NCBI RefSeq assembly: GCF_014230055.1 | Contig: NZ_JACHVA010000082.1 | Span: 62,001 to 126,000, forward strand | Length of the DNA stretch: 64,000 bases | DNA from: Puniceicoccus vermicola | GTDB lineage: Bacteria; Verrucomicrobiota; Verrucomicrobiia; Opitutales; Puniceicoccaceae | Reading direction: 5' to 3' | Part shown: positions 47,854-58,115 of the stretch, piece after piece | Numbering within the stretch: the first letter of the stretch is position 1 | Layout: the number at the start of each line of letters is the position of its first letter | Position numbers and translations under genes: made by a program | The notes under the pieces: model-generated | The model's input: the letters and a program-made list of their open reading frames with translations, nothing else | What the model was told of the DNA's origin: nothing | Databases searched by the model: none

Positions 47854-49536
47854 TCAGGAATCTCGGAGATTGATGGAAGTGGTGCTGGAGGCGTCGACCC
47901 GGACAGGCTCCCGAATCCCGTCGTAGCGGTTGCGGGATATTTCGACATTTCGGGCGGTCATGAGATGAATGCCCACCTCGGAATTTCGGAATGTGTTCTC
48001 GGTAATTAGAATATCTCGATTCAGCGGAAGATCGAATCCAGCGGAATGAATCCCCACGCATCCGACCGTGTCGTAGCGCGGATAGAAACCGCAATTATCG
48101 AACTCGCATTGTCGAATCAGAACATCGGTCGCATGGCCGCCCTCGGCATGGGTTGGCATCTCTGCGCCCAGAAGAATTCCCGGGTTCATGATGTTTTCGT
48201 ATCGATTGTTATGGAGAGTGAGGTGGTCATAGCGGACAAGATGGCCCGCCCCGGCGATGTTGGAAAAGCGAGAGTTCCGGCACTGATAGGATTCGGCCTC
48301 CCAGCAATTGAAGGCGCAGAGCGTACCGGTTCCGGCGAAATCCGGAAACCCTTCGGTGAACCGGACCCGGTAGAGATAGCCGAGATGTTCGTCTTTTGCT
48401 TGGTCTTCCAGTCGTGCCGATTCAACGACGCGTGACTCTGTCCGTGGGCCCCGGTGAAAATCGACGACCGACCCTATCGTGATCGGGGCGTAGGTGTAGC
48501 GGCAGAAAAAGAGGGCTTCCCTTTCCCCTTCGAGTTTGCGGAGGGTCGCCCAGTTGGAGTGCATGTTCTGCCCGTCCATTCTTACTCCGCGGACCGATAG
48601 CCCGTCGATTGCGATATGTCCCCCGCATTTGAAAATCTTCCACGCGTCTCGCGGTCCGGTGAAGAGTCGGTCTCCGTCGGGGCGAAAGGACACATTTCGC
48701 GCGACGATCCCCCGGCAGCTCTCCGTGAGGAAACAAAAACCGTTGCTGTTAGCGGTCCTCAGATTTTCGAAAGAAAGGTTGTCGCAATGTCCAAAATACA
48801 CCTGAAAATCGGTACGTGCTCCTTGATGCCAGGAGAGGAGGTTTCCGCGTTGGGTCATCTTGGCTGCGCGGGGATCGACCAAGCGGTATTCGTGGGCGCC
48901 GATTTTCTTCCAGGTTGATTGGGCGCCGTTTCCATAGCTGATGCTCTCGCCGAGGAGAGTTTCTCCATCCGGGGAGAATTGGTTCGCGCAATAGGCTCCC
49001 ATTCCGTCCCAGATCGGGCATCCCGTAAATGGACGTACCGTAACCCCGGTGTCGTCGCCTTCGATGACTTCTCCCGCCGAGGTGAATGTCGGAGCCCGCG
49101 TAAAGGCAAGATTCTCGATGCGAAGATTTGTGCAGTGTTCACTCCAGAGAATCGCGGGGAGCAGCGGATGGTTCTTTTCCTCGTTCCATCCCACGAGGGT
49201 CGTCAGAGGAGTGCCTTGCGCATCCGCGATTCCGGAAAGAGTCAGATTCGGGATCCGTTGCAGGAGAAGATGACACTCTTTCCGGGGAGGAGTGCCGCGG
49301 CTGCCCGCGTCGTGTACGATTCCTTCGGTTTCGTGCTCTACGTGGGAGATGAGTCGGTAGTGGCCCTTTTCGAATTGAATCCGCCGGGCACCGATGCGGA
49401 TCGCCTCTTGGATCGCTTTCCGAATGCCTGCCGCCGAATCGCTATCTCCCGGGTGAGTGAAATCCCGGATGAAGACAGTCGGGCGTTCTTCTCGTGGAGA
49501 GGTTGGATTCAATAAAGAGCTTGGGGTCGGTTCCAT
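47854..49536 (-). CDS. Cytoplasmic beta-helix protein, paralog of the preceding enzyme
   Basis: 560 residues from the ATG at 49536 (a TTG at 49545 is in frame but less likely). No signal peptide. It shares a parallel beta-helix plan with the 45939 protein: IRDFTHPGDSDSAAGIRKAI near the start, SGIADAQGTPLTTLVGW, GARTDFQVYFGHCDNLSFEN, and a C-terminus VEISRNRYDGIREPVRVDA like VRIHDNVYEGFERKVSIDP in the paralog. The segment RDAWKIFKCGGHIAIDG...RMDGQNMHSN sits where beta-helix glycosidases place their active site. Likely acts on imported oligosaccharide. Divergent from an IclR regulator. Confidence 0.72.
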   Translation of the reverse strand: MEPTPSSLLNPTSPREERPTVFIRDFTHPGDSDSAAGIRKAIQEAIRIGARRIQFEKGHYRLISHVEHETEGIVHDAGSRGTPPRKECHLLLQRIPNLTLSGIADAQGTPLTTLVGWNEEKNHPLLPAILWSEHCTNLRIENLAFTRAPTFTSAGEVIEGDDTGVTVRPFTGCPIWDGMGAYCANQFSPDGETLLGESISYGNGAQSTWKKIGAHEYRLVDPRAAKMTQRGNLLSWHQGARTDFQVYFGHCDNLSFENLRTANSNGFCFLTESCRGIVARNVSFRPDGDRLFTGPRDAWKIFKCGGHIAIDGLSVRGVRMDGQNMHSNWATLRKLEGEREALFFCRYTYAPITIGSVVDFHRGPRTESRVVESARLEDQAKDEHLGYLYRVRFTEGFPDFAGTGTLCAFNCWEAESYQCRNSRFSNIAGAGHLVRYDHLTLHNNRYENIMNPGILLGAEMPTHAEGGHATDVLIRQCEFDNCGFYPRYDTVGCVGIHSAGFDLPLNRDILITENTFRNSEVGIHLMTARNVEISRNRYDGIREPVRVDASSTTSINLRDS

Positions 49537-52257: not shown

Positions 52258-53353
52258 AGACGCGGAGGGAACTGGTCTTGAAGAATAGGACGATCGTCAT
52301 CCCGGGTTCGAGCCTAAGCTCTTCGATGGCGTCCGAAGTCAGCTCAGCTACTAGGCTTCCGGAATCTTCCTTCTCGGCAAGCCGTGCGACAAGGAGGTGT
52401 TTGTCGCCGGATTTTCGGATGGTTTCAATCTTTCCACAGAGACGGTTGCGGGCCGAAACGCGACCGGGCGATGCCAGGCCAATGAGGATGTCGGTTGCGG
52501 AAATTCCGAAATGGACGGAATCGCCGAGTTGGCAGGGGGATGAGGGCATGTGCAGCATCTGGCCGCTGGGGAGGCGGCCGATCACGTGTTGGGCGGAGGC
52601 TTCGACGATGGTGGCTTTGAGGATGTTTTCGAATCCTCCGTCCTCGATGCCGGCGTAGACCCGGGAATCGGTTAGCACTTCTACGGGTGGACCTTGGGCA
52701 ATTGCTTTTCCGTTGGCTAGAGCGACAACCTCGTCGCATATTCCCAGAACCTCGACCGGGTTGTGGGAGACCAAGAGAATCGGGAGGTCGAAGTTTTCCC
52801 GGATCCGGAGGAGAAAGGGAAGAATCCGGGAGCGCAAGCGAATGTCCAATGAGGCGAGGGGTTCGTCGAGAAGGAGTAGCCGAGGACCGGAACACAGGGC
52901 TCGGCCGAGGGCGACCCGTTGACGTTCACCTCCCGAGAGGGTAGGTACTTTACGCTTAAGAAGGGGATCCAGCTCCAGAGTTTGGATGACTTTCGTAAAG
53001 TGCTGGGCGTCGTATCGACCGCTGGACTGGGCCCGTTTTTCGCCAAAGCGGAGGTTCTGCTCCACGGTTTTGTGAGGAAAGAGAAGATGATCTTGGGGGA
53101 CATAGCCAATTCCCCGTTTTTCAGGGCGGGTTTGCTGTCGCTTCGAATGATCGAGCCAGACGGCGCCTTGAAATCGAAGGATTCCTTTCGTCTCGGGACC
53201 GAGCCCACAGATGCAATTCAGAAGGGTGCTCTTCCCACTTCCCGAGGGGCCGAAAATACCGGTCACCCGTTTCGAAAGGGTCAGGTTTAGGTCGAGATCA
53301 AATCGGTCGAGGGGGACCCGGATCCCTATATCAAGGAGGGAAGGAGCACTCAT
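52250..53353 (-). CDS. modC: Molybdate ABC transporter ATP-binding protein (ModC)
   Basis: 367 residues from the ATG at 53353, which overlaps the modB stop as ATGA; the longer frame to 53398 is unlikely. ABC ATPase with Walker [12 protein letters not shown], signature [12 protein letters not shown] and Walker [14 protein letters not shown]. The C-terminal ~70 residues ([35 protein letters not shown]) form a molybdate-binding MOP/TOBE domain, which distinguishes ModC from related transporters. It energises molybdate import. Confidence 0.9.
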
Positions 53354-54033
53354 AACGCTCGCCTCCGGCTGGATAGGCTCGGATCCCGTCCGAGCCATTC
53401 GGTGATGAAGATCGCAATGAAGCCAATGACCAGAGCCACTGCGACGAGAACATTTGCCCTGCCATCATTCCCAGCCTGTTGCGCACTGTAGATCGCCGAA
53501 GACAGCGTCTGCGTGTGCCCAGGGATATTGCCGGCGACGATGACGGTCGCTCCAAACTCTCCCATGGCCCGGGTGAATCCAAGAATAGCCGCGGCAATCA
53601 GTCCTCGATGGGCGAGAGGAAGGGTCACCGTCATGAAGGTGCGAATACGGCCGATCCCGAGGGTCAGTGACATCTTCTCCAGTCTTGGATCGACTTCTTC
53701 AAAACTCACCCGAGTGGTCCGGATCACGAGGGGAAGACTCATGACGGTACAAGCGAGAATCACCGCTTTCCAAGTCAGAAGGATTTGCAGGTCGAGCCCG
53801 AGGAAATCCCGCCCGAGAGGTCCGTGGTCGGCGAGTAGGCAGAGGAGTAGATAGCCCACTGCCGTCGGCGGTAGGACTAACGGGAGGCTGGTGAGCGTCG
53901 CGAGGATCCGTTTGCCCGGAAACGAGAAGCGGGCGAGGGCATATCCGAGAGGCAAGGAGAGAGAGAAGGCGAAAAGAGTGCTCAACGAAGCCCAGAGAAC
54001 GGTATGGATGAGAGTCTGGAGAATGCTGGACAC
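53350..54033 (-). CDS. modB: Molybdate ABC transporter permease (ModB)
   Basis: 227 residues from a GTG at 54033, 3 bp after the modA stop codon. Five or six membrane helices and the BPD_transp_1 loop [21 protein letters not shown], containing the conserved EAA/G cytoplasmic motif, are visible. It forms the channel of the molybdate importer with ModA and ModC, and overlaps modC by 4 bp. Confidence 0.9.
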
Positions 54034-54036
54034 TGA

Positions 54037-54837
54037 TTAATGCGGCGAGGATTGGACAACAAATCCAAGATTCCCGAATACCTTACGCGCTTTGTCTCCT
54101 TGAAGGAAAGTGAGAAACTCTCGCGCCAACTCGGGGTGGTCAGTATGCCCGAGGATCGCGGCGGGGTAGGAGATCTTCGGTCCCTCTTCAATTGGGACAG
54201 TGAAAAGTATCTTAACGGCTTCCGGGTAAGCTTTGGCGTCGGTTTGATAGACGATCCCGACGACGTCATGGTTGGATCGAACCTGAAATAGGGCCGAACG
54301 CACGTCGGTCGCCGGGGAAATGCGGTTTTGTAGCAGGTCCCACAGAGTATCTCCGGGACCGGCGGAAAGCCCTTCCAGCCATTGCTGGGCATAACGCCCG
54401 GCCGGGACGGAGGCCGGATCACCAATCGAAAGGTAGCGGAAGGGTTGATCGATAAATACGGAGGGCGATCCCCATCGGTAGTTGGCATTGGGGTTCTGGA
54501 TTACGACAAGTTGATTGGAGAGGAGGGAAATGCGAGATCCAGCAAGGAGGAGATTGGCGGATTCGACTTCGTTCATCCACTTTCGGTTGGCACTGAGGAA
54601 CACGTCGGCTCGTGGAGCCGCGAGAATCTGGCGCGCCAAGGCACCCGAACCCGCGAAATTGAACACGAGTGAACAATCGGTTTCTTCTTCGAACAACTCT
54701 CCGATCTCCGTCATGGCATCGGTTAGGCTGGCTGCGGCAAAAACGGTCAATTCCTGTGAGGAGGAAGCTTCTTGTCGGTGGCAAGAAACCAAAGAGACGC
54801 TCACAATCGTGAGGAGAAGAACTCTCAGGAGGGTCAT
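54037..54837 (-). CDS. modA: Molybdate-binding lipoprotein (ModA)
   Basis: 266 residues. A lipoprotein signal ends with the lipobox LVSC (Cys19), so it is probably anchored in a membrane facing the periplasm. The body starts ELTVFAAASLTDAMTEIGELFEEET, the standard ModA opening, with FNFAGSGALARQI and the anion-site serines as expected; VFLSANRKWMNEVE and YPAAILGHTDHPELAREFLTFL complete the pattern. First gene of the mod-dra operon. The 222 bp upstream contain no convincing ModE or sigma-54 site. Confidence 0.9.
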   Translation of the reverse strand: MTLLRVLLLTIVSVSLVSCHRQEASSSQELTVFAAASLTDAMTEIGELFEEETDCSLVFNFAGSGALARQILAAPRADVFLSANRKWMNEVESANLLLAGSRISLLSNQLVVIQNPNANYRWGSPSVFIDQPFRYLSIGDPASVPAGRYAQQWLEGLSAGPGDTLWDLLQNRISPATDVRSALFQVRSNHDVVGIVYQTDAKAYPEAVKILFTVPIEEGPKISYPAAILGHTDHPELAREFLTFLQGDKARKVFGNLGFVVQSSPH

Positions 54838-55060
54838 GGCTGGCTATGTGCAGATTTCAGACCAGCCATGAGGTTTGGCGGGCAAATTCACGAAGGAGAT
54901 TGAGAAGAACTCGCTCGAGAGGTTTCTGATCGGTTCGACTCGCTGACCAATTTTCATGGAAGACGTTCATGTGCAAAGGGATTCTCGTGGGTGAGAATAA
55001 CTAATTTTCCCGATTAGAGAAATTTCTATCGAAAGTCGGAAACGCTGGTTTCACGAAGTT

Positions 55061-55331
55061 ATACCGAATTTAGTAAGTTTTGACTGTTATGGTGCAGCGC
55101 AGAATCGAAGCAGCGCAAGGCGCAGGGATCGGATTCGTATCGAGATACGCTCCGATCCCTGCAACGCCGCGACCTTCGATTCTAGGCGCATCCCCTTGGG
55201 ACGGGCGGGAAATGAGCCTGAGCAGCGTTGGCCCAAATGGCACGGGTCGCAGACCCGCCTCCAATTGGGCCGCCTCGCTCAGGCTCATTTCCCATCCCGC
55301 CATAACTATCAAAACTTCCTAAATTCGGTAT
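55061..55331. mobile_element. 271-bp structured element with terminal inverted repeats
   Basis: The ends are imperfect inverted repeats of about 31 bp: the left begins ATACCGAATTTAG (55061) and the right ends with its complement CTAAATTCGGTAT (55319-55331). Inside are two long hairpins. One pairs the AGAATCGAAG...GCAGGGATCGGA side (about 55099-55133) with TCCGATCCCTGC...CTTCGATTCT (about 55151-55182). The other pairs GGCGGGAAATGAGCCTGAGC (55203-) with GCTCAGGCTCATTTCCC (55277-). No coding sequence fits. It is MITE-like in plan, lying between modA and the REC-kinase gene. A clear target-site duplication is not seen. Confidence 0.6.
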
Positions 55332-55459
55332 TAGTTTTTCCGTGTGCAAATTCTGCCCACTTCCAACCTTCGTCGTTCGTTTCAGAATGTTATCGAGCTC
55401 GGCTCAATCGTTTTGGGAATCATCCTTCTGGCTGGACTGCTCGGTTGAGAGTTTGACCA

Positions 55460-56554
55460 CTAGGGGATCCGTAGGGTTGTCGAGACTCCGGCGTCGTCGT
55501 TCTGGTGGATCGTTAAGGTGCCATTCAGGTGCTCACAGATTTCCCGAGCGAGGGCTAGTCCGAGTCCGATGCCTTGCTGCTCCTTTTTCTTCCGGCCAAA
55601 CTGGACCATGGCTCCGACTTTTCGGATCTGCTCGGGAGTCATCCCTTCACCCTGATCGACAATCTCGATGAGAGACTCTTCGTTATCCCGGGAAAGGGTG
55701 ACGGTCACGTGAGTACCAGCTTTTGAGAACTTGAATGCATTGTCGATCAGCTCGCAAAAGGCTTTTCCAATTAAGCCACAGTGTTGGGAGGTCGCGATGC
55801 CTCTCGGTAGGTTTAGCTTGAGGTCTTCACTACGGTGATGATGGGTAGCGATCGAATTTGCCAGAGGGAGGAGGTAGAGGTGGAGATCTTCGGGGTCGGA
55901 GTTCGAAGGCGATTCTTCGCTCGAGCTTTCGCGAAGGGACCGGAGGCGGGAGTAGAGACTGAGGTTCTCCGCAACATGGCGGAGCCGGTCTCCACTCTCG
56001 CTCATTAGGTCGAGATACTCTTGGATCTCGGCGGCCTCCAATTCTTGCCAATGGTCACGGAGGAGTTCCGTAAGAGTGCAGATGCTATTGAGAGGAGTCT
56101 TGAGCTCGTGCGGGATCATGGACGAGATCTCATCGCTCAACTGGTTCCATTCGCGGCGGGAGACCTCCTCGCGTTTGCGGAGTTTTTCGAGCCGCGTCTC
56201 CACGGCGCCAATGAGTTCTGCTGCCCTGAAAGGCTTGGCTAGGTAATCGTCGGCCCCGAGCTCCATTCCCTTGCGCACCTCGCTCTTTTCATCATGGGCG
56301 GTCAGGAAGATGAAAGGTGTGGTGTTCAGGCCCGGATCGTTGCGGAGTTCGGCAAGAACCTTATAGCCATCTTTTCCAGGCATGTTGATGTCGCACAAAA
56401 TGAGGTCGGGGCGAAGGGTCGAAGCCATCTCCAAGCCTGCAATTCCGTTTTCAGCGGCAGCGACCTCGTATTCTTCATATTCGAGAATGTCCCGGATATT
56501 CTCCCGAATGCTTTCGTTGTCTTCAATGATGAGAATCTTTTCTTTCGGATTCAT
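55460..56554 (-). CDS. Response-regulator/histidine-kinase hybrid (REC-HisKA-HATPase)
   Basis: 364 residues from the ATG at 56554 (a longer frame to 56656 lacks family-like sequence). A receiver domain comes first: ILIIEDNESIRENI, phosphoacceptor Asp55 in LILCDINMPGKDGYKVL, LTAHDEK and the conserved Lys in YLAKPFRAAEL. A short linker precedes HisKA (His149 in IPHELKTPLNSI) and an ATPase domain with SLIEIVDQGEGMTPEQI and GIGLGLALAREICEHL. No membrane segment and no DNA-binding domain. It sits 28 bp downstream of the GAF-PAS kinase gene, whose phosphoryl group it may receive. Confidence 0.88.
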   Translation of the reverse strand: MNPKEKILIIEDNESIRENIRDILEYEEYEVAAAENGIAGLEMASTLRPDLILCDINMPGKDGYKVLAELRNDPGLNTTPFIFLTAHDEKSEVRKGMELGADDYLAKPFRAAELIGAVETRLEKLRKREEVSRREWNQLSDEISSMIPHELKTPLNSICTLTELLRDHWQELEAAEIQEYLDLMSESGDRLRHVAENLSLYSRLRSLRESSSEESPSNSDPEDLHLYLLPLANSIATHHHRSEDLKLNLPRGIATSQHCGLIGKAFCELIDNAFKFSKAGTHVTVTLSRDNEESLIEIVDQGEGMTPEQIRKVGAMVQFGRKKKEQQGIGLGLALAREICEHLNGTLTIHQNDDAGVSTTLRIP

Positions 56555-56582
56555 GACGTCGGTCTTCAGATTTCGGCAATAA

Positions 56583-58115
56583 TTAGGCGGCCGGTAGCCT
56601 GAACGAGAACATCGTTCCTTGTCCGGGTTCACTTTCGACCCGAACTGCGCCCCCATGGGAATCGATGATCTTTTTTACGATGGTGAGCCCCAAGCCCGTA
56701 CCGGGAATATTGCGGTGATCGGTGTCTTCCGAGCGGAAAAATCGTTCGAAGAGTCGGGGGATATCGGTTGCGGGAATCCCGATGCCCTGGTCTTCGACGA
56801 AGACATAAATCGACGGGTCGGGCTGCTCCTCTGACGAGGCGAGTGGGTTGGTTGAATCTTTATCAACGTCTGCGAGGGTGATGGTAACGGTGCCTCCTCC
56901 GGGTGAATACTTTAGGGAATTGCTCAGGAGGTTGTTGAACACCTGCTCGATTTGCCCTGGATCGCCGACTGTCTGGGTGTGAGGAGTTTCGATCTTTAGG
57001 TCTACGCGGGATCTCTCGTTTTCCGAATCCAAATTCTCGATCGATCTTTTGGCTAGCTCGACAAGGTCAATGGTATGTCGATTGTGCTCTTGGCCAGCTT
57101 CCAATCTGCCGAGATCGAGGAGGTTTTCGACAAGCCGTTTCATATCGTCCATGGTTCGCTCCATCCGCGCGAGTTGCCGTTTTTGTTTGGCAGTCAGATT
57201 CTGTCCGCGGTGCACCAATTCGATTCCCAGCATGAGGGAACCTATCGGGCCTTTTAGGTCGTGCGAGACCGTGTGAACAAACTCACTCTTTATCGCGTCG
57301 AGCTCCTTCAGGGAGGTTACATCCCGGAAGACCGCGGCCCAGCCGAGGATCTCGCCATATTCGGATTGGACAGGGAAGAGAGTTGCCTGGGCCACTCGTT
57401 TCTCGCCGAAACAGACTTCTGCCGCATCTCTCCGGTCTCGAAACAGATTGGCCGTTTCGGGGGAGGCTACGACCTCTTCGATGGGGGAGCCCGGTGCAGA
57501 ATCGACGTCCGTCGAGAGCAGTGGGGCCGCCGCAGGATTGGCCATGAGGAGAATATTGTCCGGATTTACGAGAAGAAACGCGTCCTTCGAAGCTTGGAGA
57601 ACGGCTCGCAGGGTGAGTCGCTCGTCAGACAGTTCCTGATACAGCCGGGAATTTTGGAGAGAGCTCCCGACCGCAGCGCTAAGGGCCTGGGCCAAAGCCT
57701 CATCGTCCTCGGTAAATGCAGCGGAAGTTCGTGATCCAAAGGCGAGCGCTCCTATGATCTCTTCTCCTTGCCGGATAGGTGTGACCAGCGTCGATTCGAT
57801 TTTGGCTTCGTGCCAGAAGGTCTCAGCGCTAACTCCTTCTAGGCGATCATTGCGCTGAGTTCCGTCACCATTCAATACGGAGCCACAAATGCCTCCGGAA
57901 ACAGGGAACTCGGATCCTTCGGTGGTTTGGTTTCCCGCGAGAACATGAGTTCGAAAATAGTCGGGTTTCTCGGATCGGAGGCATATCGCCAGAAAGTCAT
58001 GAGAGATCAGGGCGGGGGAGAAATCAGCAACCACCTGAAAAATGTGACTGGGGATAGGGGAAGTGGCGAACTCCTCGAGAACCGTTGTCAGGGTTTTGAG
58101 CTTGTGGAGAATCAT
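56583..58115 (-). CDS. Soluble GAF-PAS sensor histidine kinase
   Basis: 510 residues. A GAF domain (about 10-155: SPALISHDFLAICLRS, VSGGICGSVLNGDG, IRQGEEIIGALAFGSR) is followed by PAS (about 165-270), HisKA with His285 in VSHDLKGPIGSL, and a HATPase domain (VFVEDQGIGIPATDIPRLF; GTGLGLTIVKKIIDSHGG). No membrane helices, so it senses an internal signal. Its start overlaps the stop of the redoxin gene upstream by 4 bp (58112-58115), and the REC-kinase gene follows. Redox sensing is a reasonable but unproven idea. Confidence 0.88.
   Translation of the reverse strand: MILHKLKTLTTVLEEFATSPIPSHIFQVVADFSPALISHDFLAICLRSEKPDYFRTHVLAGNQTTEGSEFPVSGGICGSVLNGDGTQRNDRLEGVSAETFWHEAKIESTLVTPIRQGEEIIGALAFGSRTSAAFTEDDEALAQALSAAVGSSLQNSRLYQELSDERLTLRAVLQASKDAFLLVNPDNILLMANPAAAPLLSTDVDSAPGSPIEEVVASPETANLFRDRRDAAEVCFGEKRVAQATLFPVQSEYGEILGWAAVFRDVTSLKELDAIKSEFVHTVSHDLKGPIGSLMLGIELVHRGQNLTAKQKRQLARMERTMDDMKRLVENLLDLGRLEAGQEHNRHTIDLVELAKRSIENLDSENERSRVDLKIETPHTQTVGDPGQIEQVFNNLLSNSLKYSPGGGTVTITLADVDKDSTNPLASSEEQPDPSIYVFVEDQGIGIPATDIPRLFERFFRSEDTDHRNIPGTGLGLTIVKKIIDSHGGAVRVESEPGQGTMFSFRLPAA

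Follow-up and report, generated by a model that had tools for sequence, protein, structure and literature searches.

A MITE of Puniceicoccus vermicola appears to contain an inverted pair of hairpin modules that recurs across bacterial phyla under unrelated terminal repeats

Analysis of a 64,000-nucleotide window of the Puniceicoccus vermicola genome (contig NZ_JACHVA010000082.1) supports the identification of the element at positions 55062-55330 as a MITE, a small non-autonomous transposable element. Judged from sequence and covariance models, its two hairpins represent a single module of ~103 nt in inverted orientation, and what is conserved in elements of this kind appears to be the body, not the ends, since the module is seen across phyla under unrelated terminal repeats. 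The window element itself qualifies as a member of the putative module superfamily, with full-length modules, a bulged core, and an inverted pair. The initial annotation had described a 271-bp element. The observation of a hairpin-bearing element is real and far from chance, and the hairpins were confirmed; the exact unit, however, is 269 bp, starts with TACC and ends with GGTA, and the flanking TTA lies outside it. Two covariance models are used below. R1 was built from hairpin 1 only (15 sequences), and R2 was built from 48 sequences, with the window's own genome (G000), the congener G003, G211, and G243 among the contributors. The features of the element are as follows.

55059-55061, no strand: left TTA target duplication, with TTA on both sides
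55062-55087, plus strand: left terminal inverted repeat (TIR), TACCGAATTTAGTAAGTTTTGA..., from inverted-arm and TIR-pattern searches
55089-55191, plus strand: predicted hairpin module 1 (R2, 108.9 bits; R1, 123.5 bits in locus L001)
55116-55121, plus strand: 5' side of the conserved core, CAAGGC, with the AA bulge before GGC (columns 91-100% conserved in 76 distinct modules)
55163-55167, plus strand: 3' side of the conserved core, AACGC (columns 93-100% conserved)
55201-55303, minus strand: predicted hairpin module 2, the inferred inverted copy of module 1 (R1, 53.7 bits, E 1.2e-12; R2, 77.0 bits)
55225-55229, minus strand: core AACGC of module 2, GCGTT on the plus strand, from the sequence and the R2 match
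55305-55330, minus strand: right terminal inverted repeat, from inverted-arm and TIR-pattern searches
55331-55333, no strand: right TTA target duplication, with TTA on both sides

The match of module 1 to both models is by construction, because both include its sequence. Module 2, which corresponds to L001 1646-1748 (minus strand) in the R1 search, is likewise included in R2, whereas R1 contains only hairpin 1. The core of module 2 reads CGAGGC instead of CAAGGC. Elsewhere in the window, a weak R2 match at 49141-49245 on the minus strand (20.1 bits, E 0.0016) falls inside a 563-aa open reading frame (ORF) and is probably chance.

The proposed hairpins and terminal inverted repeats were confirmed by an inverted-arm search and by single-stranded DNA folding. 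The outer inverted arms (55056-55092 and 55300-55336) are 37 nt long and 86% complementary, and there are perfect internal arms of 17 nt (55207-55223 and 55277-55293) and 12 nt (55122-55133 and 55151-55162). Folding of 55061-55331 gave -101.1 kcal/mol, versus -42.2 ± 3.8 kcal/mol for 200 dinucleotide shuffles (z -15.4), and none of the 200 shuffles folded as well. The element contains no credible gene, consistent with the lack of coding content inferred initially; two 80-aa ORFs within it cross palindromes and were given no weight. A gene for a solute-binding protein (SBP_bac_11) on the minus strand starts at 54837, so that the element lies 224 bp upstream, and is followed by a permease gene and then by an ABC gene with a TOBE domain. 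At the family level, these three genes are compatible with modABC and with the placement of the element upstream of modA. A response regulator/histidine kinase gene (55460-56656, minus strand) has its stop 129 bp from the element. Nothing here favored the further suggestion that the element could be an attachment site or a regulatory region for modA: a simple scan of the element gave no match to a sigma-70-type promoter or a terminator, and there are many copies at other sites.

In the G000 genome (5.2 Mb, 143 contigs), 24 loci align with most of the query at 79-100% identity, and there are also fragments; ten copies at 83-90% identity are present in G003. No match to the element was found in G002, of the same genus, or in G001, of the same family. 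The initial annotation had proposed a search for further copies, which these loci provide, and had held that one conserved copy at this syntenic location in all relatives would refute mobility, which is not the pattern observed. The MITE reading is instead borne out by dispersed copies, by the presence of carriers and noncarriers among the congeners, by paired TIRs, and by 3-bp direct repeats. The TIR pattern gave 74 matches, versus 8 for a reversed control. Flanks were counted at 32 of 37 loci tried, namely, those whose TIRs passed the filter (22 in G000, 7 in G003, and 3 of subfamily 2). Identical 3-mers flanked 25 of these 32 copies (TTA/TTA in 13 and TAA/TAA in 12), and TTA/TAA was seen in 1 (Fisher P = 2.7e-6). 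Because TTA and TAA pairs are both present with the copies set in one orientation, the repeat is a duplication of 3 bp rather than an invariant end of the element. No empty site was seen: the flanks of the window copy had no DNA match in three relatives, and none of the fetched loci contained a spanning empty site. Plasmid records had no match for the window element, L168, L219, or L235; a 31-nt terminal repeat had one match in them, at E 7, which we took as chance.

Some loci have structural peculiarities of their own. In L022 (G000:C118:58047-58321), the center of hairpin 2 is inverted with respect to other copies (query 152-238, 98%, minus strand). Hairpin 2 of L068 and L070, both in G003, has a self-complementary insert and is 10 nt longer. 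L159 (G000:C47) is a MITE fragment near another repeat-like stretch, which begins TACCACAGGCTGCCAGCCTGTG.

The mover of the element is inferred to be an IS630-type DDE transposase like that of G000. The G000 gene encodes 357 aa with DDE_3 and HTH_29/32/33 domains (C100:3830-4900), and a second copy at C75 is cut by the contig end. The right TIR of this insertion sequence (IS), TACCTAATCTAAAAAGGTTTGA, shares 18 of 22 positions with the MITE TIR variant TACCGAATTTAGTAAGGTTTGA and, by our own count, 17 of 22 with the window left TIR. The left TIR agrees more poorly, and the IS TIRs are thus similar, not identical, to those of the MITE. Relatives with 65-69% identity, some of them partial, are present in G210, G006, G057, G116, and G048, which together with G000 makes 6 of 273 genomes (E <= 1e-60). 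IS630 elements usually duplicate a TA dinucleotide. The MITE has a 3-bp TWA duplication instead of the TA expected for an IS630-derived MITE; flanks of TTA (L137), TGA (L145), and TAA (L147, with a weak inverted repeat of 18 of 26) indicate that this IS630 clade seems to duplicate TNA, not the usual TA. Only these three related loci were readable at both ends. A 3-bp TNA or TWA duplication is also made by the IS1031 group of the IS5 family and by eukaryotic Tourist/PIF elements, which are alike in this respect, whereas the IS in G000 is of the IS630/DDE_3 type. Because G003, with its ten element copies, lacks such an IS630 gene, the partner of the element can only be inferred. A search of GTDB with the IS630 protein gave 71 pattern stretches, none of which was confirmed, and records from the own genome were possibly excluded.

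DDE_Tnp_1 (PF01609), with 27 matches in G000, was rejected as a partner: none of 30 loci from three of the four genomes searched showed a flanking inverted repeat like TACC...TTTGA, and a further comparison covered copies of five groups. A longer element with the MITE TIR was also rejected, as the TIR-pattern matches, inspected by eye, show no pair at IS distance. In G000, several transposase groups in near-identical copies (the 27 DDE_Tnp_1 matches) are located at many contig ends, and the assembly seems to be broken by them. G210, which carries an IS630 relative, is also host to a separate family of ~150-bp elements (L117-L133, e.g., L121) with the TIR TACCAAATTCAGTAAAGTTTGATCC and other internal hairpins. 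In the same genome, L130/L116 (G210:C29:45739-45785) is a bare TIR-to-TIR palindrome of ~47 bp with TAA on each side, a minimal element without a body.

A second subfamily, present in G003 and G000, has the TIR TACCACTTCGAAAAAATTCTGGCG and the same two hairpins, whose arms are rewritten yet complementary. On the opposite strand of the same elements, R1 detects their hairpin 2 (L001, 53.7 bits; L151, 60.9 bits), which implies an element composed of a TIR, a module, a short linker, an inverted module, and a TIR. The initial annotation was right that there are two separate long hairpins and missed both this inverted-copy relation and the recurrence across bacteria. Rfam 15 gave no match to the element (window 53000-57500, E up to 1), and for modules in six loci (E up to 0.1) it returned only tRNAs and one weak tRNA-overlapping match in L183. 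In the open-access literature, no description of the module was found in titles and the starts of abstracts among the matches listed.

In a MAFFT alignment of 33 copies, two-sided changes were found in 45 of 97 RNAalifold pairs and, by our own count, in 31 of 73 pairs outside the TIRs. This alignment was not fitted to a structure, but the structure was predicted from the same alignment. In alignment A7, which holds 76 distinct modules, 90.0% of cells are paired and 35 of 38 pairs show two-sided changes, with a covariation score of 0.806 versus 0.197 when shuffled and at most 0.144 when slid. Alignment A6 has 91.4% paired cells, 32 two-sided pairs, and a score of 0.692. Both A6 and A7 were fitted to the structure model and are biased toward it. 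The bulged core, C-AA-GGC ... AA-C-GC, is 91 to 100% conserved per column across the 76 distinct modules, and in the twelve most distant rows whole-module identity to window hairpin 1 is only 32-43%; searches that hold the core favor sequences that keep it. The complementarity of the arms could in principle arise without selection, by mutational copying from one arm to the other (template switching in quasi-palindromes). Arm-to-arm correction is known for palindromes, and the arms are near-perfect in many members. Such copying should nevertheless erase the asymmetric AA bulges, which are kept in the strongly conserved columns just described (with the same caveat of a core-favoring search), and just 4 of 46 variant states are compensated among 22 copies in G000. 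We consider this explanation quite improbable.

At E <= 1e-4, R1 had matches in 19 of the 273 genomes of the order; these come from several families, nearly all cover the full length, and the best match beyond the genus (G226) is full-length with E 6.0e-19. At E <= 1e-5, R2 had matches in 34 of the 387 genomes of the phylum. Of these genomes, which fall in 26 of 197 genera, 30 had not been used to build it; a full-length match in one genome not used for the model (G078) reached E 1.8e-19. The other 353 genomes of the phylum had no R2 match at E <= 1e-5. Copy counts per genome from the R1 and R2 scans are lower bounds, because only 14 or 10 candidates were scored per genome, and the E-values of the models are rough owing to a short calibration. 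An exact core-region pattern occurred at seven loci in GTDB r220. R1, which was built without proteobacterial sequence, matched five of them at E 1e-11 to 1e-8 (two in Pseudorhodoferax aquiterrae and one each in Variovorax boronicumulans, Pseudorhodoferax sp. Leaf274, and a Proteobacteria MAG) and had no match at the Alistipes locus or the Betaproteobacteria MAG locus. The six genomes behind these loci were chosen by the pattern, and four contributed sequences to R2; with R2, P. aquiterrae had 13 matches, V. boronicumulans 3, Leaf274 and the Betaproteobacteria MAG 2 each, and the Proteobacteria MAG 1, and the Alistipes genome had none. Viral contigs contained one exact core pattern, without a model match at E <= 0.01.

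TIR-like ends bounded the module at 50 of 57 loci, with at least 17 of 20 terminal bases paired at 41 and 15-16 of 20 at 9, in a search limited to 90 bp on the upstream side of the module and 230 bp on the downstream side. The weakest boundaries may be chance, not every one of the 57 loci is a match, and the loci are not independent (13 are from one genome). Elements with two detected modules (n = 20) all measure 264-278 bp; those with one detected module (n = 30) are 166-190 bp (10 elements), 216-239 bp (12 elements), or 263-294 bp (8 elements). The terminal repeats vary and include TACC.., GAACCTATCTCAAATTAG, GAGGGCGTCTAAAAAG, TAGAGCATGTTCGC, GGGCGTGTCTGGG, GAGGGTGTTTCCGAAAT, GGAACCTCTGATTGGG, GGAGCCTGTCGGGCTTAA, and others. 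TNA direct repeats at the matching offset were found at 22 of the 47 loci used for this comparison (6 of the 22 are of the TACC type), whereas 2000 shuffles of the flanks gave 5.1 on average and never more than 11. Some of the remaining loci resemble TA by eye. The module fell within a large ORF at 16 of 57 loci, a count that we distrust because palindromic GC-rich DNA yields long open frames. These data also bear on whether this is simply an ordinary MITE family in which hairpins are incidental and the distant matches reflect chance or convergence. Bacterial MITEs generally fold well, according to the accessible part of one source (PMC2229807), and the distant model matches stand without a scrambled-model control. 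Against this are the full-length matches outside the genus at the E-values given for G226 (R1) and G078 (R2), the TIR-like ends at most loci, the narrow length range of two-module elements, and the absence of matches from 353 of 387 genomes and from the Alistipes genome. Such an account can hardly be right.

Covariation together with conserved bulges is typical of RNA, and the module could be a functional RNA (regulatory, stabilizing, or guide-like) that is spread by MITEs, with the inverted pair ensuring one sense copy in either orientation. In the module orientation, G-U cells outnumber A-C cells (40 versus 18 in 24 rows of module 1 and 19 versus 5 in 8 rows of module 2), and of the two strands the module strand gives the more stable fold in 41 of 53 rows, which are partly redundant and include at least one antisense row that passed the filter. 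The alignment behind the cell counts, however, was fitted with an RNA model and is biased toward G-U; counted as distinct states, the figures are 26 versus 17, and the G-U and A-C states internal to the TIRs in the MAFFT alignment are even (21 versus 19). The short, mostly single-module elements have no sense orientation to genes (12 same and 21 opposite, from 23 loci with crude ORF calls), Rfam has no match, and the two modules of an element lie on opposite strands. The strand tests, by G-U/A-C and by stability, leave DNA versus RNA undecided, and we regard a functional RNA as unlikely without dismissing it.

At consensus pairs, the 22 family-1 copies in G000 have 46 variant states, comprising 30 one-sided mismatches, 11 G-U pairs, 1 two-sided mismatch, and 4 two-sided Watson-Crick changes; in six G003 copies, 2 of 15 variant states are two-sided Watson-Crick. 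Compensated changes make up a larger share in comparisons between subfamilies: 16/22 (L151), 15/20 (L158), and 19/22 (L151 versus L158). The share is lower against L024 (8/16) and between the G000 and G003 consensus sequences (4/7). The comparison of 4/46 among G000 copies with 16/22 against subfamily 2 (L151) gives P = 1.5e-7, although the states are not independent. Private changes, counted without L021 and L022 (deletion, rearrangement), occur at 0.167 per paired site versus 0.200 per unpaired site (P = 0.61) and number 2 in 40 core sites (0.050) versus 38 in the 186 other sites (0.204; P = 0.035). We take these data to mean that the fold is required in source copies, whereas landed copies are largely free of fold constraint. 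The smaller number of private changes in the core leaves room for some constraint on landed copies, and the low compensation in recent copies may alternatively reflect too little time.

The account that we favor, with some reserve, is that of a MITE at TWA/TNA sites that depends on a transposase in trans and needs its fold for spreading. The noncoding element would insert at TWA, or more widely TNA, sites, with the transposase acting in trans. The fold would be needed for the spread of the element and not for the action of a copy at its landing site, which is an inference. Each end, made up of a TIR and its own inward-facing module, could form a hairpin in DNA unwound during replication or transposition, and a host factor independent of the transposase might bind the bulged core; this last step is a proposal without direct evidence, and no such binder is known. 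Because the modules face inward from the ends on opposite strands, we prefer a role at DNA ends, with modest confidence. The recurrence of the hairpin shape and core under unrelated ends suggests that the hairpin helps elements spread. A broader interpretation, tentative and on balance doubtful, is that this undescribed module, conserved across phyla, is the propagating heart of a long-lived non-autonomous transposon lineage that has kept its fold and core, has exchanged TIRs to suit successive unrelated transposases, and is recognized by a host factor or the transposition machinery as a DNA hairpin or RNA.

The nearest described systems are RUP, CIR, REP doublets, and NEMIS. As far as the accessible part of the source describes it, RUP of Streptococcus pneumoniae (the IS630-Spn1 MITE) resembles the window element in being small and noncoding, in having TIRs, and in its presumed mobilization by an IS630 transposase (PMC2229807). 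RUP is 107 bp with a TA target, whereas the window element is 269 bp with a 3-bp TWA duplication and a two-module body. CIR (CerM-associated intergenic repeats) of Caulobacter and Brucella, as covered in the same portion of that source, consists of two hairpin arms and a linker with a structure kept between genera, and in its linked hairpins and conserved structure it is like the window element; in contrast, it is listed there without a TIR and has a conserved GANTC at the loop (PMC2229807). The available section of a second source describes REP doublets and GTAG and CGTC REPs as single hairpins or inverted pairs found across phyla, including Verrucomicrobia, with units of 20-40 bp, GTAG or CGTC tags, and a tie of the GTAG ones to RAYT genes (PMC3733652). 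The window element shares the hairpins, single or in inverted pairs, and the wide spread over phyla, but has 103-nt modules inside TIRs and a TNA duplication. Correia/NEMIS and ERIC elements are likewise MITEs with strong hairpins, in what could be consulted of the first source (PMC2229807). On that partial description, their two ends pair as a stem-loop, while the window element has separate internal modules under unrelated TIRs.

These results draw attention to an IS630 clade whose target duplication is a 3-bp TNA, and the covariance model can be used to find and compare elements of this kind. Bacterial MITEs are commonly seen as transient deletion derivatives of a single IS whose ends define them. 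Conservation of the body instead of the ends, which we infer from sequence comparison, would imply a function for the internal hairpins, and such a function can now be tested.
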